Below, piece after piece: positions 2,824-55,872 of a stretch of DNA of 64,000 nucleotides (position 1 is the first letter of the stretch; each line of letters opens with the position of its first letter). Where the stretch lies: the NCBI GenBank assembly GCA_949361645.1, contig OX442417.1, positions 9,168,912 to 9,232,911 on the forward strand, given 5' to 3'. Source of the DNA: Spongilla lacustris. Its lineage: Eukaryota; Porifera; Demospongiae; Spongillida; Spongillidae. A model generated the notes under the pieces. That model searched no databases. It saw only the letters and a program-made list of their open reading frames with translations, and had not been told where the DNA came from. The translations under genes and the position numbers were made by a program.

Positions 2824-4154
2824 AAAATCAATGCATTAAGCTGAAAAAAGGTGTGCAGGAATTTTAAGTTACAGCATACGATTAACACACACACACACAA
2901 TTCCACACACAAACACACACAAAACCACACACACACACACACACACAAAACAACCACACACACACACACAAAACAACACACACACACACACACACACACA
3001 CAAAACAACACACACACACATACACACACACACATGGTTAAAAGAAATGCATGCAACTGAAAAAGGTGTGCTGGAATTTTTAGTTACAGCTTACAATTAA
3101 CACACAAACTCACACACAACACACACACACATGGTTAAAAGAAATGCATTCAACTGAAAAAAGGTGTGCAGGAATTTTCAGTCACAGCTTACAATTAACA
3201 CACACACATGGTTAAATGTCACTGAAAAAAGGTGTGTAGGAATTTTAAGTCACAGCTTACAATTAACACACACACACACATGGTTAAATGAAATGCATTC
3301 AGCTGAAAAAAGGTGTGCAGGAATTTTTAGTTACAGCTTACAATTAACACACACAAACTCACACACAACACACACACACACATGGTTAAAATTAATGCAT
3401 TCAGCTGAGAAAAGGTGTGCAGGAATTTTTAAGTTACAGCTTACAATTAACACACACATGGTTAAAATGTCACTGAAAAAAGGTGTGTAGGTATTTTAAG
3501 TCACAGCCTACAATTAACACAAACACACACACACACACACAACACACACACATGGTTAAAGGAAATGCATGCAACTGAAAAAAGGTGTGCAGGAATTTTA
3601 AGTTACAGCTTACAATTAACACACACACACACATACATGTACATGTACACAATACGCACACATGGTTAAAATAAATGCATTCAGCTGAAAAAAGGTGTGC
3701 AGGAATTATGAGTTACAGCTTACAATTAACACACACACATACACAATACACACATACATGTACATACACAATACACACACACACACATGGTTAAAATTAA
3801 TGCATTCAACTGAAAAAAGGTGTGCAGGAATTTTAAGTTACAGCTTACAATTAAAACACACAAACACACACAACACACACACACACGGCTAAAACAAATG
3901 CATTCAGCTGAAAATAGGTGTGCAGGAATTTTTACATGTAGTTACAGCTTACAATTAACACACACACATACACAATACACACACATACATGTACATACTC
4001 AATACACACACACACATGGTTAAAATTAATGCATTCAACTGAAAAAAGGTGTGCAGGAATTTTAAGTTACAGCTTACAATTAAAACACATAAACTCACAC
4101 ACAACACACACACACACATGGTTAAAATTAATGCATTCAGCTGAGAAAAGGTGT

Positions 4155-16572: not shown

Positions 16573-16621
16573 TTACAGTGCCAATTTTACAGGGCAAACA
16601 CTATACATGTAATATGAAAAT

Positions 16622-19600
16622 TCAAGGAAGAGTTGCTGAACTAATAACGGACAACCAATCACAAAAATCTGCGACAGGGTCTGCAATCGTTTGGTTCAAC
16701 TTAGTGGTCCAGAATTCATTAAATTTCATTTTCACTTGTGCTTCATATGAGGTAAAAGAAACATGACTGTCAATATTGCCGCTCCGCATATCCAGTTCAG
16801 TGAAAAATACTGACCACTCTTCAACAAGCAGTTCAATATATATTTTCTTTAGTCCTTTCAATTCAGAATAGTGCATATTTCCCTTCAGTCCATTTCTAAC
16901 ACGTGCAATTTCATTTGAAACATACACAAACTTAGGATGTGATGGGTCATTCAACCAATTTCTTGATTTTTCCAATTTTGTTTCTATTGCCTTTTTAAGC
17001 AAATAGCAGTCCATTTGTTCCATTTTCATCCGCACTTCACTCAGAGCATCAAAGAAGACTTTTAAAACATGATCAAATAAAATGGATTCCCTCTTTGATG
17101 CCAATTTTCTTTTTTTAGATTCGTTATAAACACGGTCACTACGTTTTTCTCTTAAAGATTGAAGAAAATTAGGATTTTTCAATAGCTGCACCTTATCATT
17201 TTGGTCTGTATTAAGGGAACAAATAAGTGGATCTTCCAAACTAAGAATCATACTGCATGTTCCAGGCTGCCCCTGTCGTCCTGCTCTTCCATATCCTTGT
17301 TCCTCAACCCTGAGGTTTACAGGTAAAAAAGAGAAAATAAGATGTAATCCACCAGCATCAATGCTTTCTGTAGATAAAATTATATCAGTGCCTCGTCCAG
17401 CCAAGTTGGTTGCTATAGTTACTTGTCCTGCCTCTCCTGCTTTTGCAATGATAAATTCCTCATCTTCTTTCTGTTTCTCATTGAGAACAAAGTGAACAAT
17501 TCTTCTTTCCTTCAGCAACTTAGAAAATATTTCACTTTCACTGATAGTAGGAAACAAAATTAATATTGGACGCCTCAAAGCTTGTTGTTTCTTAATCTCG
17601 TTAATAAGGGCTTTAGTATGCTCAGTGACACAACTTACTAATTGACTAGGCTCTTCTTTCCTGTTGCATGGCTTGTGCGGTGGCACATCAAATGAGGCCA
17701 CTTTGTAAATTTCAGCAACTTCTTTTCTTTCAATATCTTCTCCCATTGTACCAGTTAAACCATAAATATTTTTATATAGGTTAAAGAAGGCTGGATGAGA
17801 CAAAGCTGCTGCAGTATCACTTTGTGTTTCTGGTTTTAAATGATTCATTACCTCAACAAATTCATGAACACCATTTGACCAGCGACTACCTATCATCACC
17901 CTTCCTGTGTTATCAGGATCAACAATCACAACCTTTAGCTTTTCATCATCATCTTCAGAAGAGCGTATCACATAATCATGATCAAGCCTTTTTCTGCTTG
18001 CTCCAAATGCACTATTTCTCCAAGTAATCAGCATGTCATCACTGAAAGAGTGTACCTGAGAAGAAAACCTGCCATTCTGATAATTTTGTAGTGCCAATCG
18101 AAGATACTGTGTTGAGGTGAGAAACAAAAATGCATTGTCTTGAAGTGCACACCATAAAGGTTCATACACCCATGACACATCTCTTGATGATGGATTTGCA
18201 ATTCTTGCAGAATTCAATGCAGTGTCAATTAAAAGATTGTCAACTTCATCCACAATAACCGCATCACATATTCTTGGCTGTCTCAAACCATTTCTGCTGA
18301 TAAAACGTAATCTTGTGTCTTGTATTGCATCAAACATAATGGAGAATTCAAAGTCTGTGTTAGTTCCAAAAAGTACTTGGGCATCAAAATTTTCTGGCTT
18401 AGGAGGCCTCTGGCAGATATGGGAGCAACGTATGCCAAAATACTCATAATAATCATGGTATTTGGTCTGGTCTCGAATTGCAAGATAATGATTTGCCGTG
18501 ATGATGTCAACATTGCGACCTTGACATGCCAGAAATGTTGCAATAATTGTGATGATTGTTGACTTTCCTTCACCAGTGCGTACTTGAGCAATGCGCCCCT
18601 TTAGGCCATCAGGTATGCTTAAAATGCCAAAGGCAGCTATAATTTGGGTGTTGTTGGGCAAAATTCCAAATTGTAGTCGAATGCACTGGCGAATTATGGC
18701 AAAGAGGTGTAACTGATTCTCTCTGCTGAAAGGAAGTTGACTTCCCAATTGTCGAGCTTCCTTTCCAAGCCAGTCAAGAGACTTACCAAAATAAAATTCC
18801 GATATCTTGATTATCAATTCATAATCTTTAACAAAACGAGCCATTTCAGCTTCTGACAAAGCAACATGAACAAAACGAGAAGCTGTTAAGAAATGTTTGC
18901 TCACTTCGTTTATTGGTTTTTCTGGAAAACGTTGCTCATAATCTTGTTTCAGTAAATCATGTAAGGACGTCAAAAGTGAATCTAAGGACAAGCACTTAGC
19001 CAATAATGTGACAACATCACCAGGTGTTTGGTTTTTCTTTGTTTCTTCCAGTTTTTTAGTTTTCCTTTTATTTTCTTCCAGTATGTTGTTGCTAAAATAA
19101 GGTAGCAGTTCCAACATCAATTGTGCTGCTTTTGCAAACATCTCAACTGGGTGCTGCACTTTAGCAGTGCCACAATTTATAAGTTTTTGGAGTACTTCAA
19201 TGCCGTATTCATCATGTAAACGTCTAGATAACACCAACCAGCTGCTTAAGCTTTTCCAATTTTCAGATGCAGCTTCAAGACCATTTGATACAACAGAACT
19301 GATTAATTTTTTTCCCTCATGACTTAGAGTGAGTTCATGATCCAGCTTTTGAAAAAAATTATACAACTGCTGAAATGAGCTGGAACAATGGTAGATTGAG
19401 TAAACTAATGCATGCGCAGTGAAAAATTCCAAATCGCCTGTGGTTTTTATGCTTGGTACCACTTTGGGTTCACATATCAATCCCCTTATCAGAAGATGTT
19501 TAGCAACAGGTCCAATGTAACCACTCTTTTGGACATGCTCAATAACTTTATAAGGTGGCAAATCATTTAACAAGAAGAGCTGGATTTTTTTTTGTTCCAG

Positions 19601-22600
19601 GTGGGATGATGGTATGCATTTCAAACATTTTACACCCCTCATCAAATAATCAGAATTTATTGTACAACTTATTGATTCTGATAATGGAGGTGTGCACAGT
19701 AAAGCTGCATCATCTTTGGTTAGTTCGAAAAAATCAATCCAATTCTGACAACAGGATTTCCATTTAATTAAGTCAATGTCAATCACTAAAATTGGCTTAA
19801 AATATTCTTCTGCCCATAGCAGCAGTGGGGTACCTTCAGATAGATTCTTGATAATTGTAGCTGTTTTTCTCCATTCGGTGACAGAATGCAAAATATGCCA
19901 TGGATAATGATCAAGAAAGAGCTCTGTCAGACGCTTGCCACATGAAGCATCGCACAAATGTTCCTTACACCAGCCCAACCAAGAAGTGAAATAGGTTGAA
20001 TGCTCTTTTCTTGAGATACATGATATGCTTGATAACCACTTCTCAACAGTTCTTGATGACAACAGTTCTAAATAGTGTTTGGCCTCTGCTTGTTGCTCAG
20101 ATGTGAACCACTGATGAATACTGCTCAGAGCAAAAGATTTCAGTTTATCTATGTTGGGAGGTGATGACCACGACAGATCTTTATTTCTATCATTCACATG
20201 TTCTAACCACACCGGTAAATGAATCCCGCACATATCTGTTTCATTCAGCTGGCAATCAACGACTAACCAATTTGTGATATCAGCTTCAGGTATATTTAAT
20301 GGTTGTTTGTGCCTTTTCAAAGCAACCAATAGTTCTGGTTTGGTATTTACAAGGCTCTGTGCAATTGACTTTGCTGTTTCTCCACATTTGTTCCTGAAAC
20401 TTATAAGTTGGGGCTGTAAAAGCAGTAAAAGATTAACTGCTTCTACAGCTGCCATCCTTACTGCCAAATGTAAAAATGTGTCTCCTAATTCAACAGAATG
20501 GTTCCAGTGACCTCTGATACGTTCCAATAAAGGCATTTGTAGACGCATTCTGATAAGTATGTATTGAGGCAACTTTTCCACTTCTGACTGGCTTGGCAAT
20601 TCTTTGCTCATTATAGTGACAACTTGAGTGATTTTTACATTAGGTTGCATAAAACAGGCCACAGAAGGTCGCAAACCACCACAAGATGGTTGTCTACAAT
20701 TTACATTATGACATAAAAGTTGAATTACTGCTCCACAATGTCCTTCAGATATTGCATTTAGTAATGGAGTGTTTCCTTCCTTGTCTAAAACATGGGGATG
20801 TGCTCCATGTGATAACAATTCTTGAATGATCACAACATGACCATGTTTGGCTGCCATATGCAATGGGGTTGAAAGTGTGGTAGAATCTGACATATTGGGA
20901 GAGCAGTTGGCTTCCAAAAGAATATTAGCACATAATGATGCATTGAATACAGCAGCAAAATGTAATGCATTTCTGCCGTACTGGTCAACTGCATTGACAT
21001 TTACATTCAAACTTAAAAGAAATCTCAAATTTTCAGCATTATCGGTCATACAACATGCTTTTATCATTTGCAAATCTTGCCCAGGTGCATGTATAGCAGT
21101 GGTGTGTAGAAATAATTGTATTAACTCTGGGCGCTTGGATGAAAAAGACAAACTAGCGGCTGCAATTCCATCTTCGTATTTTGCTGATGGGCATGCTCCT
21201 GCTATCAACAGTTCAGTACAAGCATTAACATGGCCTTGACGAGATGCCAGATGCAATGGTGATACTTTCGAAGTGGTATCTTCTGGCTTGGTTGAGTTCA
21301 CTCCATTCTGCTTCTTGACAATGATGCTAATTGCTTCTGCATTTCCCACCAGAGCAGCATAATGAAGAGCTGAAAAACCTTTTATTTCATCTGTAACATT
21401 CACATCAACACCATAAGCTATGAGTGAGCTAATCACTGGATGCAGCTGGCCCAGCACAGCATACATCAACAATGTTTTCCCACTCCTGTCTTTGGCAGAT
21501 AGGTCTTGCATTTTGTTCATCAAAAATACACTCATTTTTATTTCTTTGGCTCGTAATGCATGATGAAATGCATTTCTACCTTTCCTGTCTGTGACATTAG
21601 GATTTGCTCCTTTTGCCATCAATTCTCTAGTTATGGACTCACTACCTATGGCTGCAGCCATCATGAGTGCAGTAACACCTTTTTTGTCTGGTTTGTCTAC
21701 AGGAAAGGTTTGAAATGTATCCAGAAAATTGGAAACATCTTTTAAGTTCTTAGAACAGACAGCCAGGTGTAATAGTGTCCAACCATCAGGCCCAAAATTA
21801 GTTTCCAATGGACTTTCTATTGATTCCAGCAGGTTTAACAACCTTGCAATTTTCTTATGAGACATAGCTGGTATATAGAACTCACCACTTCGCTTTAGGA
21901 TTGTATTAAACTGCTCTTTAAAGTGCATTTGTAAATATGACAGTACACCATTTGATTGATCATCAGGCAGAATCATCAAAAAATGACCAAGTGACTTTCC
22001 ATTTTTATCCAAACCATCAACTCTCAGCTGATCAGTGCTCAGTTCCAAAAATGCTTTCAGGCCTGGCACCAGGATCAATGCAAATGGCAAAATTAATTCA
22101 TTACCATCTATATTGATGTAGATGCAATTTATTGGGAATCCTTTCAGAAGCAATTGCTCATATTCCCTGAGCTTTTCATTTTCAATTACAGACTGCAGTA
22201 ATACTCTGTCACTGTCAAATCGCACAAAACATCCTGACAAGGCTTCCCTTATGTAAACATTTTGTGCAAATGGTTGTAAATTCTGCATTAGTTCATTGAC
22301 AATGGGGACAGAAAAGGCTCCCTTCAAATAGAATCTGCGTAGGAGCTCAACATCATTTAGATCACATGCTGCAAAAAGAGCACATTCTTTTGTACAAGGA
22401 ACATCAGCCTTAGCACCATAGGCCAGCAAATTATCAATGATTTTACATTGACTTGTTATTGTGGCAAGGGCAAGTGCTGTTCTACCATCTATTACACTGT
22501 TTACACATACAAGAATGTCATTCACCTTCATTAGCTCCAAAACTGCCTCAACACGATTCCCATCTCCTGAGTGTATAGCATTGTGAAGTGCTAGCACACA

Positions 22601-25600
22601 CTTTTCTTTATCAATTGTCTTTTGTTCATCACCCAAGTGATTAAACAGCCATGATATAATCTTTTTTTTACAACCTCCAATATTTGCTGTCATCCAAATG
22701 TCTTTGGGCCAAAGATTAGGACTAACTATTTCAGAAATGGCACACAACAGTTTCAGATCATTATGCAATATGGCAATCTGCATGGAAGTTCGACCTTGTG
22801 AATCTTCCTTTTGAATACTACCACCCCAGGATGGAATCTGCTTGATAAAAGCAATTGATCCAATTTCAGCGGCCCATGTTATTATATTATATCCTGCAGG
22901 ATTTATTGTTTGATTCATATCACCAACTAAAGTTAGTAAAATTTCCAGGACTTTAATATTTCCACTTCGAATAACTGCATCAAGTACATGTTTACCATGC
23001 CAAGCATTTATTACCATCTCTGAAGTTACATATTTTCTCATCAAAATCAAGCACCGAATACTTGCATGTTCAGCAGCTAAATAAAGAAGTGTTTTGCCAC
23101 TCTCTAAGCCTTTTTTGATATTTCCTTGCACCAATGAATGTTCAGATAACCATTTTCGCAAAAAACCAATGTCATCAGCAATAACAAGCCAATGAACCAA
23201 GTCTCGGTTGCTATCTGATTTATAACTGACTCCTTTCTGCATAAGGTAATTAGCTAGTACTGTTTGACCATATTCTGCAGCAACTGCCAAACTAGAAGCA
23301 CCATGGTATACTTTATTACAGTCCACTTTCCCTTCTTGTGCTAAGCAAGAATATCTGAAATATTCCCCATTTACCAGTAGATAGTAAGAATAATCAAAAC
23401 CTAAATCATCATAACCATGAGTGGAAACTCCTTTCCTTACAAAGACATCACACACTCTGAACATTCTCAACTTAGCAGCCAAGATGATTTCAGCTGTAGT
23501 ACCAAATCCACTTTGTTGTGCCAATATCAATGCAATATCTTCAAATCCATTTTCCATTGCCAAAACAAGTGGAGTAGATCCATTTTTATTTTTGTGATTT
23601 ATTGATGCGTTCGCAGCAATCAGTAAAGTGACAACTTCACTATGACCTTTGGCTGAAGCACAATGCATTGCACTTGTTCCAGCTTTCAGTTGTACTTGAG
23701 GCTTTGGTGAAGCCATAAATAGCTCCTCAACAGTTATGCTCACATCTGGAATTCTTCCCGATTGTAACATGACCTGCAAAATAGCTACCTGGCCCAGTTC
23801 AGCTGCAAGATGCCATGGTGTCTTCCCATCACTTTTTCGTGGCTGCAGCAAGTTTAGCCCACGATTTATTAGTGCTGTGGCAGCTTTGTACAAAGACTGC
23901 TTTACTGCTTCATGTAATAAATTCTCTCCATTGTCCAGTATAAACAATAAATTTGACTCTACATGATTGATTAAAGTAATAGATGTTTCTTCATAATGGT
24001 TTTGTAATGCTACCCACAGTGCTGTTAGACCACATGGCAAACGATGGTTTACATTAGCTGAGTAGGCAAGTAATAGCTTTACTGTGTCATTGTGGCCTCG
24101 TGAAGCTGCTGCTATTAAAGGTGTTTCTCCACTATTTGTGCAACAGTTTATTTGGTCAGGCACTGTGCTAAGTAAAGCTTTCACACCTAGCACATTTCCT
24201 GAGCTGGCAGCAGTATGCAATGGCAAGATGCCACTCTCAGTTTTTGTGGTTACTGAAGCTGGAGCCTGATGAACAATAAAATTAGAAGTGTCAGTATCAA
24301 GTGATTCAACAACCTGATCCAATGTTGTTCTACCATACAGACCTACAGCAGCACTACACCAATCATCATCAAGTTGCACATTATCTGCCCCAAGCCTTGA
24401 CAAAAGTTTCGTCATGACATTCAACTCCATGTCCTTGTTAATTTTGCAAGCTTTTAAACTCAACAGCAGTGGCATATAACTGGTCACATCACTATTCATT
24501 TGAATTGTCTGTATTTTAAACACAGTATATTTATTTTCATCATGTTCTAAAATCTCAGTGCTGAACGTTTCAGGCTCCAGTTTCTCTGCCAAATCACATG
24601 CTTTACAGAAGAGGCCTTGCTCACTTTGCCACAATGGTTTTAAATCTAAGGTAGGTAACTTAACACTGCAGCCACCAACAATTCTTATGTTGTCACCAAT
24701 AGTGTGATAATAGCCACCATCTGCAATGGTGAGTGTAGAATGAGGATAATTGGAGACCAAATTATCATCTGAAGATGGATGGTCAAAAAGAATATCGGAA
24801 AGCCTTTCTCGTTTACTTGAATATTCATTGATTTTTCGCTTGGACTGAGAAACCCAATCCCTAAAAGCTTTCTTTTTAAGCTCAGTGACCTGCCTGTTGA
24901 CATCTACTTCCATCTTCTGTACTTCCTTTTTTATTGAAGCAGCAGTTTTGGCTGGTAGATCATGGCGTGCCTGTTGAAGCTCTCCAAATTTGTTTTGAAT
25001 TTGCTGGTGAATTGTATGTAGCCGATCACTTTCTTTTTGAAGCCTTTGATATTCTTGCTGCATTTGTTGACGAAATTGTGGTAAATTATTTTCAACTGTA
25101 GCATTTACATCTATATTCAAATAATTGTAATGTTTTGACAGCTGATTAGTGATCTCATGTCGCAGTTGTGCGTCTGTAATAGGGACTTGATGCAATTGTT
25201 GATTCACTGTGGATATTGCCTCATTACATTCTGTTGATTGGCTTTTCAGATGCTCCTCAGCACGATTCAAATCTTCACTTGCATGATTTGCCTGATCTAG
25301 TAAAGAATGTTCTATATGTTTTGTAAATTTCATGATTGACTTTTCCTTTTCCTCTACTATCTTCTGCAAAGTTTCATTTGGAAGTACTGGTTCTGCCAGT
25401 TTGGATTGACCCTTCTCGAATTGAATAATCAACATGTTTAGAAAAGTAATCTGCTCCTGCAGGTTAGGTTTTCTTTGTAAGTCCTCAATTCTTCCCAACA
25501 TGGGCATTGCTGTAAAAATTTCATCTGCAACAGTTTTAAAAATACGATGGTATGCCATTGCAAATTGTATCAAATGTTGGGTTACTGTTCTTGCATTCTT

Positions 25601-27331
25601 CTTCAAAAATTTCACATCTAACCCCATGGATACTACATCCAAAGGAATTACTTTTGTGACAATACTTTCAACTACACTCATTATTTGCTTTCGTGCTACT
25701 GCAGACGGCTCAGGAATGCGATGTTCGGTAAACTCCTTCAGTATCTGATCAAGTTTTACTCCCAATTTACCTTCCTCAGCTCGGCACTCTTGTATGAATG
25801 CTTTTACAGTTATATTTATTTTATGAAATGTGTAATAACGCACAGGAACTGGAGGTAGTATTTTTGGAAGTACAAAACTGACCACACTGGGGGCTTCTCT
25901 AAAACTTGGAATCCTTCCTGCCAGTTTCATGGTATTGAGATAATAAGCACAGAAGCTTATCACACCAAGCATGTGGAAGTATTCTGTGAATATGGGTATT
26001 TTAGGCATCCAGGTTTTTATCTGGTCTTTCATTGATGCATAAACGCTTTGTAGAGTTCCATAACTTGCTGGATATGATCCATGGTCTTTTTGAAAATTAT
26101 CAATGTATTCTTTGTAATCAGGCATTAGGTCAATGGTGTATTCAACATCAAAATCAGGTTCAATAACAAAAACTCCATCTTGTTCACGAGCCTCACGTAC
26201 TTGTGAAATAATGCGAAATGATGTCATGAACCTTGTTCTGAAAATTGATTCTGGGTTGTCTGACATGTCTTGTTCAGGACCTTCTAATCCTTCTCTTGCC
26301 ATCATTTCACGCAATGAGATGTATCCTGCATTGGGTAAGTGGTCTTGACAATAACGCTGCAAATCAATCAGATGACTTTTCAGAAATATTTTGTCCATGT
26401 TGCTTGACTTGTGCCAATTTTTCAGAAAGCTTTTGTCATAAACACCACCATTTAGAAACCCTTTCATGAAGTAATCTAAGAAGCAAATCACTTCTCCTAC
26501 CAGAGTATTCTGGTAGGCAGGATGAATTACTGGATAGAGGCAGCCCTCTTCATTAAAATGCAAGCTGAAAAATGGAAATGTGTCATGCAAATAAATACCA
26601 ATTGCCAATTCTCTCAAAATTTGCTTCAGCTCACCATTGCTGAAAGGCTGATGACAAGGGTCAACATTTTTGACTTTCACAACAAAAATATTCTCATGAT
26701 GTAATGCAAATGTAACTGAGTCCTTAAATTCATTTAGTACTCCAACTTTTGTGGCAACACCACCAATGACACTATTTTGCACAGCCCTATTAATAACACG
26801 CAACCCCATCATAGAATTATAGGACTCAGTAAGACCAAGCATATATAAAATGGAAGAAAACATGGTCTGATCCACACTGGGTTGTTTAAAGCACATAAAT
26901 TTCCAAAAGATGTTTAATACATTCCATCTTTGATCTGAGCTAAGTTTATCTAGACTGGATCTGTCACTATGTGAGAGCAAGCCAAAATTTGCCTTCTTCA
27001 TTAGTTCCAAATGAAGACTGTCAGGATGAAACTGTGGCAGAAGTGGACAAAAAGGAGAACAAATCCAATATATTGATGATAGATTATGGAATTCAAAACC
27101 AAATGGAAACTTTTGGTGCATTGGGTTTAAAGCAAAATACCTGAGTATAGATTGCATTGCCTCATTGATATGTTTTGAATCTGCTTGTGATTTTTTGGCT
27201 ACCACAGATTGATCAGATGTGTTTGATTTAACTTTAGGCTCATGTGGTTGATGAGATGTGCTTGGCATTGGCATTTCCTGAGTATTTGTTTTGTGCCTTC
27301 TGTCATTGTCATAAAGTTTTGCAAAAATATC
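16622..27331 (-). CDS. Giant ankyrin-repeat protein with C-terminal SecA-type motor (large terminal exon)
   Basis: One uninterrupted frame of about 3,570 codons. Residues counted from the in-frame ATG at 27355: 1-650 unrecognised helical region; ~660-855 coiled coil rich in Q/E/K; ~1040-2345 about 30 ankyrin-like repeats, many degenerate, the best at ~1800-2250; ~2350-2800 unrecognised helical region; ~2830-3450 SecA-like motor. Motor motifs: RTGEGKS with K2931; TANHYLA 2953-2959; FGTNTDFEFS; DEVD 3036-3039; VVIVD...TGRVMIGSRWSNG at 3142-3162, diagnostic of the SecA preprotein cross-linking domain; LTGT 3200; ATNLAGRGTDI to 3325; QGYGRAGRQGQPG 3353-3365 with both arginines. In bacteria SecA drives proteins through SecYEG. 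No SecA C-terminal zinc motif and no visible targeting peptide here, so substrate and location are unknown. A strong 3' splice site abuts codon 9, so the true start is probably in an upstream exon. Confidence 0.85.
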   Translation of the reverse strand, partial: DIFAKLYDNDRRHKTNTQEMPMPSTSHQPHEPKVKSNTSDQSVVAKKSQADSKHINEAMQSILRYFALNPMHQKFPFGFEFHNLSSIYWICSPFCPLLPQFHPDSLHLELMKKANFGLLSHSDRSSLDKLSSDQRWNVLNIFWKFMCFKQPSVDQTMFSSILYMLGLTESYNSMMGLRVINRAVQNSVIGGVATKVGVLNEFKDSVTFALHHENIFVVKVKNVDPCHQPFSNGELKQILRELAIGIYLHDTFPFFSLHFNEEGCLYPVIHPAYQNTLVGEVICFLDYFMKGFLNGGVYDKSFLKNWHKSSNMDKIFLKSHLIDLQRYCQDHLPNAGYISLREMMAREGLEGPEQDMSDNPESIFRTRFMTSFRIISQVREAREQDGVFVIEPDFDVEYTIDLMPDYKEYIDNFQKDHGSYPASYGTLQSVYASMKDQIKTWMPKIPIFTEYFHMLGVISFCAYYLNTMKLAGRIPSFREAPSVVSFVLPKILPPVPVRYYTFHKINITVKAFIQECRAEEGKLGVKLDQILKEFTEHRIPEPSAVARKQIMSVVESIVTKVIPLDVVSMGLDVKFLKKNARTVTQHLIQFAMAYHRIFKTVADEIFTAMPMLGRIEDLQRKPNLQEQITFLNMLIIQFEKGQSKLAEPVLPNETLQKIVEEKEKSIMKFTKHIEHSLLDQANHASEDLNRAEEHLKSQSTECNEAISTVNQQLHQVPITDAQLRHEITNQLSKHYNYLNIDVNATVENNLPQFRQQMQQEYQRLQKESDRLHTIHQQIQNKFGELQQARHDLPAKTAASIKKEVQKMEVDVNRQVTELKKKAFRDWVSQSKRKINEYSSKRERLSDILFDHPSSDDNLVSNYPHSTLTIADGGYYHTIGDNIRIVGGCSVKLPTLDLKPLWQSEQGLFCKACDLAEKLEPETFSTEILEHDENKYTVFKIQTIQMNSDVTSYMPLLLSLKACKINKDMELNVMTKLLSRLGADNVQLDDDWCSAAVGLYGRTTLDQVVESLDTDTSNFIVHQAPASVTTKTESGILPLHTAASSGNVLGVKALLSTVPDQINCCTNSGETPLIAAASRGHNDTVKLLLAYSANVNHRLPCGLTALWVALQNHYEETSITLINHVESNLLFILDNGENLLHEAVKQSLYKAATALINRGLNLLQPRKSDGKTPWHLAAELGQVAILQVMLQSGRIPDVSITVEELFMASPKPQVQLKAGTSAMHCASAKGHSEVVTLLIAANASINHKNKNGSTPLVLAMENGFEDIALILAQQSGFGTTAEIILAAKLRMFRVCDVFVRKGVSTHGYDDLGFDYSYYLLVNGEYFRYSCLAQEGKVDCNKVYHGASSLAVAAEYGQTVLANYLMQKGVSYKSDSNRDLVHWLVIADDIGFLRKWLSEHSLVQGNIKKGLESGKTLLYLAAEHASIRCLILMRKYVTSEMVINAWHGKHVLDAVIRSGNIKVLEILLTLVGDMNQTINPAGYNIITWAAEIGSIAFIKQIPSWGGSIQKEDSQGRTSMQIAILHNDLKLLCAISEIVSPNLWPKDIWMTANIGGCKKKIISWLFNHLGDEQKTIDKEKCVLALHNAIHSGDGNRVEAVLELMKVNDILVCVNSVIDGRTALALATITSQCKIIDNLLAYGAKADVPCTKECALFAACDLNDVELLRRFYLKGAFSVPIVNELMQNLQPFAQNVYIREALSGCFVRFDSDRVLLQSVIENEKLREYEQLLLKGFPINCIYINIDGNELILPFALILVPGLKAFLELSTDQLRVDGLDKNGKSLGHFLMILPDDQSNGVLSYLQMHFKEQFNTILKRSGEFYIPAMSHKKIARLLNLLESIESPLETNFGPDGWTLLHLAVCSKNLKDVSNFLDTFQTFPVDKPDKKGVTALMMAAAIGSESITRELMAKGANPNVTDRKGRNAFHHALRAKEIKMSVFLMNKMQDLSAKDRSGKTLLMYAVLGQLHPVISSLIAYGVDVNVTDEIKGFSALHYAALVGNAEAISIIVKKQNGVNSTKPEDTTSKVSPLHLASRQGHVNACTELLIAGACPSAKYEDGIAAASLSFSSKRPELIQLFLHTTAIHAPGQDLQMIKACCMTDNAENLRFLLSLNVNVNAVDQYGRNALHFAAVFNASLCANILLEANCSPNMSDSTTLSTPLHMAAKHGHVVIIQELLSHGAHPHVLDKEGNTPLLNAISEGHCGAVIQLLCHNVNCRQPSCGGLRPSVACFMQPNVKITQVVTIMSKELPSQSEVEKLPQYILIRMRLQMPLLERIRGHWNHSVELGDTFLHLAVRMAAVEAVNLLLLLQPQLISFRNKCGETAKSIAQSLVNTKPELLVALKRHKQPLNIPEADITNWLVVDCQLNETDMCGIHLPVWLEHVNDRNKDLSWSSPPNIDKLKSFALSSIHQWFTSEQQAEAKHYLELLSSRTVEKWLSSISCISRKEHSTYFTSWLGWCKEHLCDASCGKRLTELFLDHYPWHILHSVTEWRKTATIIKNLSEGTPLLLWAEEYFKPILVIDIDLIKWKSCCQNWIDFFELTKDDAALLCTPPLSESISCTINSDYLMRGVKCLKCIPSSHLEQKKIQLFLLNDLPPYKVIEHVQKSGYIGPVAKHLLIRGLICEPKVVPSIKTTGDLEFFTAHALVYSIYHCSSSFQQLYNFFQKLDHELTLSHEGKKLISSVVSNGLEAASENWKSLSSWLVLSRRLHDEYGIEVLQKLINCGTAKVQHPVEMFAKAAQLMLELLPYFSNNILEENKRKTKKLEETKKNQTPGDVVTLLAKCLSLDSLLTSLHDLLKQDYEQRFPEKPINEVSKHFLTASRFVHVALSEAEMARFVKDYELIIKISEFYFGKSLDWLGKEARQLGSQLPFSRENQLHLFAIIRQCIRLQFGILPNNTQIIAAFGILSIPDGLKGRIAQVRTGEGKSTIITIIATFLACQGRNVDIITANHYLAIRDQTKYHDYYEYFGIRCSHICQRPPKPENFDAQVLFGTNTDFEFSIMFDAIQDTRLRFISRNGLRQPRICDAVIVDEVDNLLIDTALNSARIANPSSRDVSWVYEPLWCALQDNAFLFLTSTQYLRLALQNYQNGRFSSQVHSFSDDMLITWRNSAFGASRKRLDHDYVIRSSEDDDEKLKVVIVDPDNTGRVMIGSRWSNGVHEFVEVMNHLKPETQSDTAAALSHPAFFNLYKNIYGLTGTMGEDIERKEVAEIYKVASFDVPPHKPCNRKEEPSQLVSCVTEHTKALINEIKKQQALRRPILILFPTISESEIFSKLLKERRIVHFVLNEKQKEDEEFIIAKAGEAGQVTIATNLAGRGTDIILSTESIDAGGLHLIFSFLPVNLRVEEQGYGRAGRQGQPGTCSMILSLEDPLICSLNTDQNDKVQLLKNPNFLQSLREKRSDRVYNESKKRKLASKRESILFDHVLKVFFDALSEVRMKMEQMDCYLLKKAIETKLEKSRNWLNDPSHPKFVYVSNEIARVRNGLKGNMHYSELKGLKKIYIELLVEEWSVFFTELDMRSGNIDSHVSFTSYEAQVKMKFNEFWTTKLNQTIADPVADFCDWLSVISSATLP

Positions 27332-27350
27332 CTGTAGTGAAAAAGATACA
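27332..27350 (-). other. Probable 3' splice site of the giant exon
   Basis: On the minus strand a pyrimidine-rich tract TATCTTTTTCACTACAG ends immediately before GATATTTTTGC (27331 downward). The junction is exactly between codons of the long frame. The eight residues before it (MYVSFSLQ) would then be intron read-through rather than protein. Confidence 0.6.
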
Positions 27351-27355
27351 TACAT

Positions 27356-28747: not shown

Positions 28748-28917
28748 TGTAATGGTGACGTCAGCTGCGCATCGCAGGACAGTCTGAGACGCGCATCTTA
28801 CATGTCTGCACCCTGAACCTCACCTGACTGTTGGATATATAAGTCTCTATTTTTGTATGTATAGACACGTGCTATGTAACTGCCTGTGATTGGATCATTA
28901 CTCATATAATCGTTACA
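28748..28917 (+). repeat. 5' LTR of Gypsy-1
   Basis: 170 bases, TGTAATGG...GTTACA. A TATA box (TATATAAG, 28836-28843) gives a likely promoter. It carries TGACGTCA-like sequence (GTGACGTCAGC) at its start, a CRE-type motif. Confidence 0.93.
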
Positions 28918-28918
28918 C

Positions 28919-28936
28919 TGGCATAGTCGGCAGGAT
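28919..28936 (+). promoter_or_regulatory. Primer binding site, tRNA-Ser type
   Basis: TGGCATAGTCGGCAGGAT starts one base after the LTR. It complements the 3' end of eukaryotic tRNA-Ser (…CCTGCCGACTACG-CCA) at 17 of 18 positions, from memory of that tRNA. It overlaps the first two bases of the gag ATG. Confidence 0.7.
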
Positions 28937-29591
28937 GGCAAAACCAGTACTGCTTCCCGAACCTTTCAGCGGCGATGCGGCGGATTGGAACGAATGGTTG
29001 AGCCATTTCGAAAGCATTGCAGTGGTCAACAAATGGGAAACAGGCGTCGAAAAGCTGAAATGGCTCCGCGTACGCCTAACAGGAAAGGCACAGACAGCCT
29101 TCATGAAATTGCCAAGCGCCGCACGAGACGATTATGGTGAGTGCGTGAAAGCATTAAATAAACGTTTCGTTCCTGACAGCAGGAAAGACCTGTACGTCGC
29201 TGAGCTACAGACGAGGACGAAACGTCGAGAAGAGGACTGGGCCTCTTTCGGTGACTCTCTAAGGGTGCTTTCTGATAGGGCTTACCCAGACTTTGAGGAC
29301 AAAGCACGCGAACGCCTGGCCCTAAATCAATTCCTGTCGCAAATCGATAACCCTCAGGTTGCCTTTGGCGTAAAACAGAAACGGCCTGGCAACATGGATG
29401 AGGCAGTTGCAGCCACCATGGAATTGGAATCCTATCTGAAGGCATCTGGCGTTGGTAAGTCACACCAAACTAATTTTGTCACCCAACAACAGACAACCAG
29501 TTCACCAAGGCAAGAAGAAACCACTGCTATGGCAGGTACGTGCCACCATGGCGGACGACGACCTCCGAAGTACTTTACGGGTCCTGAGTGA
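28935..29591 (+). CDS. gag: Gypsy-1 gag, matrix/capsid part
   Basis: Structural protein forming the cytoplasmic particle that packages the RNA. I choose the ATG at 28935 because it lies directly at the end of the primer binding site and because Gypsy-2 starts at the same place (MA.P..MPE/LPE). The product has the usual gag capsid look: W-rich start (DWNEWLSHFE), then FVPDSRKDLYVAELQTRTKR and RLALNQFLSQI. It matches Gypsy-2 gag along its length. The frame stops at 29589-29591 before the zinc knuckle, which lies in another frame, so this copy has a shift at about 29530-29590. Confidence 0.8.
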   Translation: MAKPVLLPEPFSGDAADWNEWLSHFESIAVVNKWETGVEKLKWLRVRLTGKAQTAFMKLPSAARDDYGECVKALNKRFVPDSRKDLYVAELQTRTKRREEDWASFGDSLRVLSDRAYPDFEDKARERLALNQFLSQIDNPQVAFGVKQKRPGNMDEAVAATMELESYLKASGVGKSHQTNFVTQQQTTSSPRQEETTAMAGTCHHGGRRPPKYFTGPE

Positions 29592-29814
29592 ACGACTCCA
29601 CCGTTTGGAAACGTCTCTGAACTCAGGGGATAATGACCGTCCAGTGGTAAAGTCAGAAAGGAGAGGAGGTGGAAAGCGAAGACCCGTGGTGTGTTGGAAT
29701 TGCGGGGAGAAAGGCCACATTGCTCGGGCATGTAGAAATCGCCCCACAGAGCATCAGGGAAACTCCAGTCCCTCGGTGGCACGGGCCAGCCACGTGAGGG
29801 GAGACATCTTCTAG
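29548..29814 (+). CDS. Gypsy-1 gag, nucleocapsid part in a shifted frame
   Basis: Continues gag in another frame. A short leucine-rich helix (LRVLSERLHRLETSL) is followed by a basic stretch and one CCHC zinc knuckle (CWNCGEKGHIARAC), which binds RNA. An ATG at 29548 sits in the context GCCACCATGG, so separate initiation is possible, but a mutation in one long gag frame is simpler because Gypsy-2 shows the same domain order. The stop is at 29812-29814; pol continues in yet another frame. Confidence 0.7.
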   Translation: MADDDLRSTLRVLSERLHRLETSLNSGDNDRPVVKSERRGGGKRRPVVCWNCGEKGHIARACRNRPTEHQGNSSPSVARASHVRGDIF

Positions 29815-32117
29815 AGGCCCCAGACAATACCGTAACTTTACATACACTATCCGTAATGTGTGGTGTGAGTTTTCGTATTGTTGTATCGATAAGTACTGTT
29901 CCTGTTGAATGCTTAGTTGATACAGGAGCTGCAATTTCCCTCCTTCACGGAAACGTCTGGACGAAGATAGCGACTGGTGGTTTCGCACAAACGCTACAGG
30001 AATGGACTGGCCAGACGATTGTGGGGGTCAATGGGAACAAGCTGTCAATAAGTGGCTACAGTCAAATACCAATATCAGTGAAAGGTAAACAGTTCAATGC
30101 CAAGTTTGTTGTCACTGACAATATCAAGGTGGATGCAATCCTGGGGCTAGATTTTTTGAATGAGAACGGGTGCATGATTGACTGCGGCAAACGACTTATC
30201 ACTTTTCCCACTAAAGAGTTTTCCCTGCCGCTGGAGGACAGTCCCCGAGATGATGACACAAGATCCATTGGGTTAATTATTAACTCAGTAACAACAGTAC
30301 CCGCTGGATGCGAAATAGAATTAATGGTAACACCGGTGGAAAAGATTGGGAGGGGTGCGTGGATCTTGGAGGGGGAGGTTTCTGGCAGACATGGAGTCAT
30401 GGTCGCTCATGCGCTGGTGTGCCCCAATAACCAGTCGGTACCTATTCGTGTGCTCAACCCACGCGAGCAACCAGTGGTACTTAAGAAAGGAGAGCTAATC
30501 GCTAGGATGGAGCGGGTGGAACAAGAACCCAGTGGCATAAATGCAGTGGACGTCACTTCAAGCTCAACACGTCCAGAGCTATCCCCAGAAAACAAAGAAT
30601 TCCTGTGGAACATGGTATCAGAGGTTGGCGACCATATTTCGTCCACTGAGAAGGAGCAATTGTTTTCTGTTTTGTCAGCGTATGGTGACGTTTTCTCTTT
30701 TCATGATAATGACGTAGGGCACACCCTCGCAACGAAGCACAGAATAGACACCGGCAACGCCCCTCCTGTTCACTGCCCCCCTCGACGAATGCCTCATGCG
30801 CAGAAGGAGGAAGTCAGAAAACTACTTCGTGACATGCTGGAAAAAAGAGTAATCCAGCCGTCTGACAGTCCCTGGAGCTCCCCTATCGTACTTGTCAAAA
30901 AGAAGGATGGGTCTGTTCGATTTTGCATTGACTACAGAAAGGTTAATGCGATAACCAGAAAGGATGCATATCCTCTCCCTCGTGTTGATGACACTTTAGA
31001 TACCCTGGCCGGATCCAGACTGTTCACAACACTCGACCTAAAAAATGGGTACTGGCAAGTAGAGGTGGAGGAGACTGATCAACAAAAAACAGCTTTCAAT
31101 ACGTCAGACGGTCTGTACCAATTTAATATGATGCCGTTTGGGTTATGCAACGCCTCCGCGACGTTTCAACGGTTAATGGATAGAGTGCTCCATGGGCTGA
31201 AGTGGTACAATTGTTTAGTCTACATTGATGACATTGTGGTAGTAGGAGGCAGCATGCGGGAGCATTTACATAACCTGGGATGCGTGTTGGATAGACTGAG
31301 AGAAGCTGGACTGCGTGTAAAACCTTCAAAGTGTAGGTTTTTACAGAAGGAGGTCAAATTTCTTGGGCACGTAGTATCTGAAAATGGGATCTCAACCGAT
31401 CCTGGTAAAACCGAAGCAATCCAGAAATGGCCAGTCCCTCGTAGCAGGCGTGAATTGCAGCAATTCCTAGGCCTAGCAAATTACTATAGGCGATTCATAA
31501 AAAGCTTCGCGTTGATTGCCAAACCTCTCCAATATCTAACCGAAAAGAATGCCCCGTTTGAGTGGACTGCAGCATGTCAAAAATCCTTTGACGATCTACG
31601 CAAATGCCTAGCATCGGCTCCCATCCTTGCTTACCCCGACCACTCAAAACCATTCCTTTTAGGCACTGATGCAAGCGATGTCGGAATAGGTGCCGTCCTT
31701 TCACAAATCCAGGACAATGGGTCGGAAGGTGTAATAGCGTACGCTAGTCGATCACTCAGTAGACAAGAACAAAAGTATTGCGTAACCCGAAAGGAATTAT
31801 TAGCTGTGGTGGAGTTTACACATCATTTCCGACCCTACTTGTTAGGTAAGAAATTCACTTTAAGAACAGACCACAGTTCGCTAATATGGATGCAGAATTT
31901 CAAGGAACCAGAGGGGCAATTGGCACGCTGGTTAGAAAAGCTCCAAGAATATGATTTTTCCATTTTGCATCGTCAGGGTTCCCGTCACAGCAATGCAGAC
32001 GCCCTATCAAGAACTCCGTGTAGGCAATGTGGACGGGGTGATTTGTGCGGGAAAATAGTCGATGAAGTGTGTGCTGTGGATGCTTTTTGCCTTATATTCC
32101 TCAGACAAACTCTCTAG
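29815..32117 (+). CDS. pol: Gypsy-1 pol: protease, reverse transcriptase, RNase H
   Basis: An open frame of over 750 codons that is open across the end of gag, so it is probably expressed by ribosomal frameshift from gag; the first ATG is at 29856. An aspartic protease comes first (VDTGAAISLLH, catalytic triplet at 29919). Reverse transcriptase carries SPIVLVKKKDGSVRFCIDYR, MPFGLCNASATFQRLMD and YIDD (31221-31232). RNase H carries LGTDASDVGIGAVLSQ, then LRTDHSSL and NADALSR. All key residues are visible. The frame is lost near 32085-32090 in a T5 run, after which integrase continues in another frame. Confidence 0.88.
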
Positions 32118-33660
32118 ATGAAGTACGGCGCATGCAAGCTGAAGACAACATTGTTGGACCTGTTTTAGAAGCTGTTGAACGAGGCAAAGTACCAGAACCT
32201 GACGTTTCCAAGTCGTGGAGTAGGGAGAGCCGCCTGTTGTTACAACAATGGGACACACTTATCTGCAAATGTGGGGTGCTCTGGAGATGTGTCTCAGAGG
32301 GAAAGGAGCGTCGCCAACTGGTTCTACCGTATAGACTGCATGGGAGAGTCATTCAAGACCTGCATGAAGGTGCCGTTGTAGCTCATCTGGGAGAAGAAAA
32401 GGTACTGTCACAATTAAAAGAACGTTTCTATTGGCCAGGGTGCACCGAAGCGGTGAAGACTTGGTGTAGGTCGTGTACGACTTGCGCATCCAGGAAAATG
32501 ACAACTCCAGCCAGAAAGGCGGAATTGCACACTATCCAGACAGGTTACCCCATGCAGATGGTGAGCGTCGATATTATGGAACCTCTACCAGAAACACAAG
32601 ATGGCTGAAAGTATGTCTTGGTGGCTATTGATCACTTCACTAGATGGGCAGAAGTGTACGCCATAAAAAACCAAGAAGCCACAACAGTAAAAAACTTGTT
32701 GACGAGATGTTTTGCCGATTCTCGCCCCCCGAACAGTTACACTCGGACCAAGGTCGGCAATTCGAGTCCGAGCTATTAGCCGAAGTGTGCTCCCTGCTGA
32801 AGGTCAGGAAGTCCCATACAACTCCGTACCACCCACAGGGTAATGGTATGGTGGAGCGGTTTAATAGGACATTACTCAGCATGTTAGCTACCGTCACTCA
32901 CGACCATCCGGGGGATTGGGAACAACATATACGTAAAGTTTGCTTAGCGTACAATTCAAGTGTTCACTCAGCCACAGGATTTAGCCCCTTTTTCCTCATG
33001 TTTGGACGCGAAGCTAAGCTCCCTGTTGACCTCATGTACGGCTCCAACCGGATAGAGGAGAGGTGTGCAACGGAATACGCCCATAACCTAAGGGAGGGAC
33101 TTCAGTCTGCATATGCCCTGGTGAGAGAACACTGCAAGGCTGAGCATCGACGGCAAAAGGACATCTACGACGAGAAGGTCCACGGGAAACCCTTCGTCCC
33201 TGGAGAGCTGGTATGGCTACATTCACCAGCTGTCCCGCGCGGTCAGTCAAGAAAACTGCATCTCCCATGGAAGGGCCCATTGAAAATCCTAGAGCGCAAG
33301 GGAGATTGTGTATACAAAATCGCAAGGCCTAGGGGTAAGAAACCCCAATGGGTGCACTTCGACAGACTGAAGCCTTACGTTGGTAGAGATGCACACGACC
33401 AAGATGATGCAGCCGACAACCATTTCCCAGCCGCGCAGCAGACAAGCAGTCGAGACGACAATTCACAATCTGCAACAACAGTTCAGCAGCCAGTCTGTCA
33501 ACCTGCAATTGCTGATGAATTATTGGACGACGATGATGAGCAGCCCACCGAAAATAATGACCAGGATGAAGACGGTCCAGCTCCAGTGCCTGATCCACGT
33601 CGCTACCCGACCAGGGACCGCCGTCTTCCAGAGCGGTACGGACCGTACCTTCAACACTGA
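32085..33660 (+). pseudogene. Gypsy-1 integrase, broken by a shift, a TGA stop and a second shift
   Basis: The first block (to 32608) has the zinc-binding HHCC part (HEGAVVAHLGEEKV, then WCRSCTTCASRK) and the start of the DDE core (VSVDIMEPLP). An in-frame TGA at 32606-32608 interrupts it. The same frame resumes (YVLVAIDHFTRW) until an A-rich run near 32690. The last block (32700-33660) has the remaining catalytic core (LHSDQGRQFE and GMVERFNRTLL, so D, D and E are all present), then a C-terminal domain (GELVWLHSPA, WVHFDRLKPY) and an acidic tail. Integrase would insert the cDNA; this copy cannot encode it in one piece. Confidence 0.85.
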
Positions 33661-48283: not shown

Positions 48284-49806
48284 GTATGCCTTGTGTGGGC
48301 ACAGTGCTTGTGCCTTGTGTGTGCACAGTGCTTGTGCCTTGTGTGTGCACAGTGCTTGTGCCTTGTGTGTGCACACTGCTTGTACCTTGTGTGCACAGTG
48401 CTTGTACCTTGTGTGTGCACAGTGCTTGTGCCTTGTGTGTGCAGTGCTTGTACCTTGCGTGTGCAGTGCTTGTACCTTGTGTGCAGTGCTTGTACCTTGT
48501 GTGTGCTCAGTGCGTGTACCTTGTGTGTGCACAGTGCTTGTGCCTTGTGTGTGCACAGTGCTTGTGCCTTGTGTGTGCAAACTGATTGTACCTTGTGTGT
48601 GCACACTGCTTGTGCCTTGTGTGTGCACACTGCTTGTGCCTTGTGTGTGCACACTGCTTGTACCTTGTGTGTGCAGTGCTTGTAACTTGTGTGTGCACAC
48701 TGCTTGTACCTTGTGTGCACAGTGCTTGTACCTTGTGTGTGCACACTGCTTGTACCTTGTGTGTACACAGTGCTTGTACCTTGTGTGTACACAGTGCTTG
48801 TATCTTGTGTGTGCACAGTGCTTGTACCTTGTGTGTACACACTGCTTGTACCTTGTGTGTACACACTGCTTGTACCTTGTGTGTACACACTGCTTGTACC
48901 TTTTGTGTACACACTGCTTGTACTTTGTGTGTGCACAGTGCTTGTACCTTGTGTGCACAGTGCTTGTACCTTGTGTGTGTACAGTGCTTGTACCTTGAGT
49001 GTGCACAGTGCTTGTACCTTGTGTGTGCACAGTGCTTGTACCTTGTGTGTGCACAGTGCTTGTTCCTTAAGTGTGCACAGTGCTTGTACCTTGAGTGTGC
49101 ACAGTGCTTGTACCTTTGTGTGCACACTGCTTGTACCTTGTGTGTGCACACTGCTTGTACCTTGTGTGCACAGTGCTTGTACCTTGTGTGTGCACACTGC
49201 TTGTACCTTGTGTGTACACAGTGCTTGTACCTTGTGTGTACACAGTGCTTGTACCTTGTGTGTGCACAGTGCTTGTACCTTGTGTGTACACACTGCTTGT
49301 ACCTTGTGTGTACACACTGTTTGTACCTTGTGTGTACACACTGCTTGTACCTTGTGTGTACACACTGCTTGTACCTTTTGTGTACACACTGCTTGTACCT
49401 TGTGGGTGCACACTGCTTGTACCTTGTGGGTGCACAGTGCTTGTACCTTGTGCGCACAGTGCTTGTACCTTGTGTGTGTACAGTGCTTGTACCTTGAGTG
49501 TGCACAGTGCTTGTACCTTGTGTGTGCACAGTGCTTGTACCTTGTGTGTGCACAGTGCTTGTACCTTAAGTGTGCACAGTGCTTGTACCTTGTGTGTGCA
49601 CAGTGCTTGTACCTTAAGTGTGCACAGTGCTTGTACCTTGAGTGTGCACAGTGCTTGTACCTTGAGTGTGCACAGTGCTTGTACCTTTGTGTGCACACTG
49701 CTTGTACCTTGTGTGTGCACATTGCTTGTACTTGTGTGTACACAGTGCTTGTACCTTGTGTGCACACTGCTTGTACCTTGTGTGTGCACAGTGCTTGTGC
49801 CTTGTG
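48284..49806. repeat. 24-base minisatellite, about 63 copies
   Basis: The unit is CTTGTACCTTGTGTGTGCAC followed by AGTG or ACTG (24 bases), with 20- and 22-base short variants and TGTACAC variants. Because 24 is a multiple of three and the unit lacks stops, long open frames occur in several frames on both strands (up to about 496 codons). None is likely to be a gene. Strings of variants recur in the same order (48760-49130 against 49200-49690), showing block duplication. Confidence 0.95.
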
Positions 49807-50443
49807 TTTCTGACATGTGAACTAAGCCCATCAAGATGTTGAAACCAAAGTAGGCCTTTATACTTCTGCAAGTGTACGTTTGTCCCATTTCTTGTACTTT
49901 GCAGGGTCCATGTGCTTTGATGCATAGATATTGGTCTCATCAACGATCATCTCCATCAGGTCATCAGGGAACAGGTGGCCGAAGACTTCAGCTCGATGTG
50001 TTGTCTAGTCGATGTGGAGTGTGGGACCACTCTGATCAGCAAATGCCCTGATCACCAATGGTGCTAGTGATGCAGTCCAATTTGGTTCTACACCTGTAAA
50101 ATGCATGGTCAGTGCACAAGTGAGGGTTGTTTCTTGCTTGAACATACTGTTTTCTGGTTCCTCCTCAACCAGGCCCGCCCTACAGTTCTTCAATGGTGGC
50201 ATCTGCTACATATTTTTGATATTGTTATGACTGTGGTTGCCACAAATAAATTCATACTTACATGTAGACACATGTGCAGCTTCATCGTGTAGTTCTTCTC
50301 CTGTGCCATCATCGTCCACTTCCATCACCATGTCGGGGAACTCATTGTCACTACCTTCTTGTATGGGCTCATCGAAATCGTCCGCCGTGTCAAGCATTTT
50401 CAACACATCATCTAACCGCAAGCGCTTCCGTCTCCATACCTGA
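49807..50443 (-). pseudogene. piggyBac-like transposase, N-terminal fragment
   Basis: The minus strand encodes RLRLDDVLKMLDTADDFDEP followed by an acidic stretch (EGSDNEFPD). A strong donor (ACAT|GTAAGTATG) and acceptor (ATATGTAG) define a 56-base intron at 50206-50261. Next come PNWTASLAPLVIRAF and SGPTLHID, then MEMIVDETNIYASKHM and IKAYFGFNILMGLVHMSE, the order typical of DDE_Tnp_1_7 (piggyBac/PGBD) proteins ahead of the first catalytic aspartate. The sequence then runs straight into the 24-base minisatellite, so the catalytic core is missing. A stop and frame changes confirm decay. Confidence 0.65.
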
Positions 50444-55710: not shown

Positions 55711-55872
55711 CCCTTGTGCAACTATCTGGGTTTAGTGCTGAGGAAATACTAAATGATCAGAGGGAAGCCAGGATTTGAAGACAATTATTGAGGCAAAGAT
55801 GACCCAGACTCGCCCTCCTAACCCAAAGCCTAAGACAGGGCAATGTTCTGAACGGAGGCGGCTCTTGCAGTT

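Follow-up and report, generated by a model that had tools for sequence, protein, structure and literature searches.

The window analysed here is a stretch of 64,000 nucleotides (C3:9168912-9232911) on contig C3, which measures 17.8 Mb in an assembly of 248.6 Mb in 51 contigs. On its minus strand, at 16622-27355, lies a frame of 3,577 codons without internal stop, in which a long ankyrin array precedes a C-terminal motor of SecA type (residues 2879-3385). SecA is taught as the bacterial and plastid export motor acting at SecYEG. The parts of the window gene, the signals at its ends and its second copy are listed below.

16622..27355, minus strand: open reading frame of 3,577 amino acids (aa) plus stop, with an intact second copy known
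27332..27333, minus strand: probable 3' splice site, polypyrimidine tract and CAG directly ahead of GATATTTTTGC, common to the second copy
25376..27331, minus strand: N-terminal region, residues 9-660, no known family
24806..25375, minus strand: charged, probably coiled-coil stretch, residues ~661-850, judged from composition
20423..24223, minus strand: ankyrin array, residues ~1045-2311, from Pfam Ank_2 and a profile made from the protein itself
18746..20422, minus strand: linker, residues 2312-2870, no known family
17738..18721, minus strand: first RecA lobe, a SecA DEAD-like domain, including GLTGT and the position of the cross-linking domain; TGEGKS at residue 2927, DEVD at 3036
17201..17671, minus strand: second RecA lobe, P-loop_SecA, residues 3229-3385; AGRGTD at 3319, LPVNLRVEEQGYGRAGRQG at 3344
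16625..17200, minus strand: helical tail at the C terminus, residues 3386-3577, where SecA has its scaffold/wing, unmatched by PF07516
16567..16572, minus strand: AATAAA, 50 nt past the stop of the window gene
C3:10655899-10666731, same strand as the window gene: second copy, intact, 1.47 Mb away on the same contig

In Pfam the motor matched SecA_DEAD (PF07517, E 1.2e-41, residues 2879-3206) and P-loop_SecA (PF21090, E 2.7e-34, best stretch 3229-3329). SecA_PP_bind (PF01043) was reached at E 2.7e-6, covering only the last 37 of the 110 profile positions, and the Pfam scan of the protein gave no match to SecA_SW (PF07516) and no SEC-C tail, which the E. coli and Priestia SecA rows do have. Many SecA2 proteins are without this zinc tail. 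The full motor of the original prediction thus stands for the two ATPase lobes, with the wing and scaffold unrecognised by sequence, SEC-C not found and PF01043 matched in part. The NCBIfam SecA models gave a best E of 7.4e-89 with every match under the curated cut-off, and the protein is therefore SecA-like and would not be named SecA by those models. Among solved chains matched by sequence all 24 listed were SecA (best E 3.7e-61). SecA-type Walker A, DEVD, TGT and GRxxRxG were all present across the two RecA lobes, and TGEGKS, DEVDNL, LTGT, AGRGTD and GRAGRQG were intact in the window gene and in the second copy. The distance from DEVD to TGT was 163 residues in the window gene and 160-190 in 11 of the 12 other SecA rows, with 278 in Prevotella. 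The putative preprotein cross-linking (clamp) region appears to have kept its length and not its sequence.

When a predicted model of the motor was searched with Foldseek, the first 36 matches were all SecA. In Pfam, where Helicase_C reached only E 0.0044, SecA led the helicases by about 39 orders of magnitude; in Foldseek the lead was 26 orders. An ordinary superfamily 2 helicase was rejected on these profile scores and fold matches. Pfam, NCBIfam, solved chains and Foldseek thus agreed with the original prediction of a SecA-type motor, and better scores for helicase profiles, which it had named as evidence that would speak against it, were the opposite of what was seen. The match of model helices to SecA extends at least as far as residue 3553, at low confidence and from a sequence alignment rich in SecA. 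In a viral fold library no protein named SecA was found among the best 50 matches to the motor model. A weak likeness to giant-virus DUF3638 proteins was seen there among many helicases (Hokovirus, Hyperionvirus; E about 1e-9 to 1e-7, 9-12% identity), and was entered at L018:5180-15844 and similar.

Outside the motor the ankyrin array was the only part with a strong family match (Ank_2, E 8.2e-91 in 11 Pfam stretches). Its ~1,270 residues give room for ~38 repeats, of which the self-derived profile made only 12 units clear; the ~30 repeats originally proposed fit the length of the array and go beyond the count of clear units. With a 3,577-residue frame carrying both parts, the predicted ankyrin-SecA protein of ~3,570 residues was confirmed. 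The N-terminal region gave no Pfam match at E 0.1, and no match was found for residues 1-1040 against plasmids or residues 1-985 against phages. An AlphaFold2 model of residues 60-660 alone was uninformative (mean predicted local distance difference test score, pLDDT, 34.7) and was set aside. In the charged stretch DUF2959 matched weakly and below its cut-off (residues 675-828, E 0.0014, Pfam). Residues 2210-2880, which include the linker, had no match against plasmids; helices are predicted in the linker from residue 2650 onward with low confidence. The PADLOC matches, which were discounted, lie in the ankyrin array or, with weak scores, in the coiled-coil stretch.

The coding exon is probably 16622-27331. 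The splice site was judged by eye on the sequences of both copies, between which the blastn match ends at 27259; at the same place in both, a polypyrimidine tract and CAG stand ahead of GA[TC]ATTTTTGC. Because this probable 3' splice site precedes 27331, the opening 8 codons of the frame are probably intronic, and the gene end at 27331 given by the original prediction is the first base after it. In the frame of the second copy the first in-frame ATG is residue 44, 15 codons beyond the splice site, yet the codons ahead of it are similar to those of the window gene. The protein therefore probably starts in an upstream exon, with its true N terminus ahead of the splice site; alternatively it starts at residue 44 in the copy and at the first ATG in the window gene. 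An upstream exon was searched for and not found, the upstream regions having only repeats in common. The AATAAA seen past the stop of the window gene was absent from the 160 nt after that of the second copy.

A six-frame search of the whole assembly with SecA_DEAD gave two matches in two candidates, the window gene and the second copy. The alignment of the copies spans 3,561 codons, and 2,952 of the residues (82.9%) are identical. A blastn comparison (E 1e-10) of the window with the 30 kb surrounding the copy matched only the gene, at 16601-27259, and a single repeat of 164 bp. Nonsynonymous and synonymous divergence (dN, dS) was calculated between the copies by the Nei-Gojobori method with our own script, giving dS 0.252, dN 0.089 and a ratio of 0.353. 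By region the ratio was 0.373 in the N-terminal part, 0.331 in the ankyrin array, 0.399 in the linker, 0.259 in the motor and 0.355 in the tail. Random placement of the 1,206 substitutions that separate the copies produced 39-75 stops in 200 trials, where none was observed, and 74-81% of changed codons altered the residue in 100 such trials against 59.8% observed. The gene is under purifying selection between the two copies. With an intact copy and no stop where 39-75 arise at random, we concluded that this is a maintained eukaryotic gene. The contig, the assembly and the Gypsy-type elements of the window support a eukaryotic, chromosomal locus, as the original prediction of a nuclear locus had it; its animal type fits a large genome with Gypsy-type retrotransposons, and an animal is only plausible from these data.

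Giant SecA-like proteins were found outside eukaryotic chromosomes as well. Legionella geestiana carries one on a plasmid (2,947 aa), with a HEAT match (1.9e-9) followed by the motor. On a plasmid of Candidatus Megaera polyxenophila, from a Euplotes culture, SecA-like proteins of 5,225 and 1,589 aa are encoded by adjoining genes, and Candidatus Bandiella woodruffii from the same Euplotes host has a plasmid giant of 2,966 aa. Three IMG/VR contigs, binned as viral, carry giants of 3,554 aa (L018), 3,556 aa (L019) and, cut, 2,094 aa (L020); the uncut giant relatives span 1,589-5,225 aa. Loci mapped on these sequences were:

L017:609-21077: SecA-like gene pair, Candidatus Megaera plasmid
L019:5183-20000 and L020:4637-10918: giant SecA-like loci on viral-binned contigs

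An initial scan of viral contigs had found no relative, and a degenerate DNA motif gave 0 matches in viral contigs, though L018 and L019 surfaced by another route; the scan of genome contigs gave one ordinary SecA only. In the class of a Pelagibacteraceae genome, 8 of 385 sampled genomes passed E 1e-60, two with the sequence hallmark R-V-E (one of them with an internal stop) and six with the ordinary motif. Similarity between the window protein and the giants was confined to the motor, extending into the tail only with the 5,225-aa protein, and the seven bacterial or IMG/VR giants compared had 25-31% identity to it. Near the giant gene of L019 lie an outer membrane protein of Protochlamydia type (3.3e-19) and a terminase match below threshold. 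Sub-threshold RickCE-like matches fell on residues 149-223 of the L019 protein and 775-848 of the L020 protein.

The best giants scored 204 bits (Megaera) and 216 bits (L019) against the window motor, and the highest score of an ordinary SecA in a single piece was 237 bits, from a Lactobacillus plasmid. Since ordinary SecA and giants were similar by score, a tree was needed. The first tree was built from the window motor, four giants reached through the L. geestiana protein and 12 other rows (SecA, SecA2 or SecA-like); a branch with support 100/100 put the window motor on the side of the giants. Placing the motor with rows from the opposite side was tested in six ways and rejected each time (approximately unbiased test, p-AU ≤5.7e-4), for groups chosen once the tree was known. 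The split was kept when long rows were dropped in four ways (99/99 to 100/100), and it returned at 100/100, with 8 rows against 16, in a tree enlarged by four further SecA rows, the second copy and two more giants, one from IMG/VR and one alphaproteobacterial. Plastid SecA was not in the trees and no root was inferred. The motif ahead of GRxxRxG was R-V-E in 9 of 9 giants read, the window gene included, and in 0 of 35 others, which all had R-[ILV]-D, near copies among them.

A position of the motor inside the SecA/SecA2 rows tried was rejected by the trees, the placement tests and the removal of long rows. As far as aligned sequences can tell, the window motor is a deep lineage outside ordinary SecA, and the R-V-E hallmark sides it with the giants; it would be sister to the bacterial giants only if the root lies among ordinary SecA. 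For the bacterial SecA-type motor of the original prediction a place among the bacterial SecA and SecA2 rows tried was not supported, the motor falling on the side of the giants of intracellular bacteria. With bacterial SecA (B. subtilis, E. coli) and SecA2 it has in common the ATPase lobes, the motifs and the predicted overall fold, and differs from them in having R-V-E, no recognised wing/scaffold or SEC-C and a fusion to an ankyrin array. The Megaera and Bandiella giants are alike in tree side, R-V-E and large size; their motor, however, is not C-terminal, and in place of the ankyrins of the window protein the 5,225-aa protein has HEAT/Arm matches below threshold and the others have no repeats called. 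The L. geestiana, L018 and L019 proteins agree in R-V-E and size class, with L. geestiana and L019 on the window's side of the tree, and differ by long extra C-terminal regions of their own.

Giant secA genes have been met before. In the parts of PMC3639933 (2013), a study on gene transfer, that treat them, the Wolbachia strain wBol1-b has two consecutively numbered secA-domain genes of 4,488 nt (wBol1_1091) and 11,829 nt (wBol1_1092). The shorter was reported with full-length matches in mosquitoes, the longer with a full-length match in the ant Harpegnathos and a nearly full-length one in Daphnia (PMC3639933). The same sections set a eukaryotic secA clade apart from prokaryotic SecA, with little sign of true introns, give purifying selection between two Wolbachia strains for the longer gene (omega 0.266) and not the shorter (0.945), and argue for transfer from eukaryotes to Wolbachia. 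Likeness to the window gene, by description only, extends to eukaryotic secA-domain genes with few introns, the longer of similar giant size, to separation from prokaryotic SecA and to exchange with intracellular bacteria, whereas ankyrin repeats are unmentioned in those sections (PMC3639933). The relevant portion of PMC5062602 names SecA as one of the eukaryotic-like domains in the phage WO module, a eukaryotic-like secA module is named for WOHa2 in that of PMC9203015, and SecA-like domains are among those listed for Amoebophilus effectors in that of PMC3482391. The short and long genes of Megaera recall the wBol1_1091/1092 pair. No paper on a fusion of an ankyrin array with SecA was found in titles and abstract beginnings, a search that did not take in subscription papers, preprints or supplements, and the literature search found no biochemical follow-up of the giant secA kind. 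The giant kind is already known, and the ankyrin-array form is a variant for which no description was found. The original prediction, whose observation was confirmed and whose interpretation was partly supported, had missed the earlier account of such genes from insects, Daphnia and Wolbachia in the secA passages of PMC3639933.

We propose, at a probability of roughly one half, that the window gene is a maintained, duplicated eukaryotic giant SecA-like gene whose protein is a soluble ATP-driven polypeptide remodeller away from SecYEG, with the ankyrins choosing the substrate. The protein would work in the cytosol apart from any SecYEG channel. Its ankyrin solenoid would bind a protein as substrate or partner, ATP would be cycled by the two RecA lobes, and the clamp region would grip and pull the bound chain, so that it is unfolded or stripped from a complex. 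Reuse of the motor outside Sec export, as originally predicted, can fairly be inferred because the scan of its own genome found no SecA besides the gene and its copy. The most likely setting would be an interaction of host with symbiont or pathogen, since such genes occur in hosts as well as in intracellular bacteria, the plasmids of these bacteria and phage WO. The locus would then be a specific instance, open to experiment, of a SecA engine working without a channel, in two selected copies fused to a protein-binding array, and it ties the eukaryotic SecA engine to giant proteins of intracellular bacteria.

Several observations weigh against this proposal. Polypeptide gripping could be lost, because SecA_SW and most of SecA_PP_bind are unrecognised by sequence, and the distance from DEVD to TGT is 196-223 residues in the four bacterial giants measured, against 163 here. 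The motor model is middling (mean pLDDT 66.3; C-terminal helices about 35-66) and is pulled toward SecA, because 18 of the 21 other rows in its alignment are not giants. Selection between two copies does not reveal function. Ordinary SecA scores no lower against the window motor than the giants do and supplies its nearest rows by path; the highest identity in the tree, 33%, is to a Variovorax SecA. The giants are one side of a branch in unrooted trees and not a demonstrated clade; midpoint rooting puts the window gene and its copy with ordinary SecA, apart from six bacterial giants (100/99), and the program warns of several long branches.

It is possible, though doubtful, that the motor has been domesticated as a nucleic-acid translocase or as a signalling ATPase in the style of NLR/STAND proteins, with the SecA lobes only switching state and no protein threaded. 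The lead of SecA over helicases in both profile and fold searches and the retained clamp-sized insertion speak against it. A bacterial effector captured in a recent endosymbiont transfer, and now drifting or of little use to the host, is unlikely. The hallmark giants on Rickettsiales and Legionella plasmids and viral-binned contigs fit such a capture, as do the 10.7-kb frame without intron and secA genes common to Wolbachia phage regions and insects in the secA passages of PMC3639933 and PMC5062602. However, likeness to the seven giants compared is confined to the motor (in one case reaching the tail) at the low identity given above, the two copies are under selection with a probable common splice acceptor and a deep tree position, and the transfer argued for in PMC3639933, as far as that section goes, runs from eukaryotes to Wolbachia. 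Contamination, a symbiont gene mis-assembled into a host scaffold, was rejected as exceedingly improbable: the bacterial-type motor and the lack of an intron within 10.7 kb would suit it, but the 17.8-Mb contig carries eukaryotic retrotransposons and a diverged intact copy 1.47 Mb off, AATAAA follows the stop by 50 nt, a probable splice acceptor is present and no further SecA was found in the 248.6-Mb assembly.

An extension of the remodeller proposal, which we regard as a long shot, is that the cytosolic channel-free SecA of some animals serves innate defence, the ankyrins recognising intracellular bacterial or viral proteins and the motor unfolding them; the giant effector-like proteins of symbionts would be the opposing version of one engine.

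The remaining features of the window were:

28890-33660: Gypsy-type coding region with protease, reverse transcriptase, RNase H, integrase and a borderline gag, just upstream of the 5' end of the gene
54602-57018: Gypsy-type coding region with reverse transcriptase and integrase
51940-52758: open reading frame matching DUF4371 (E 3.5e-11)

DUF4371 is a domain usual in hAT-like transposases. Irregular tandem repeats fill nine kb of the window between 2000 and 11200; they combine runs of AC with a unit of ~60 bases and are strongly strand-asymmetric (AT skew up to 0.37). A 24-base minisatellite in 64 copies occupies 48289-49807 and is open in several frames; the long open reading frames there stem from the repeat.
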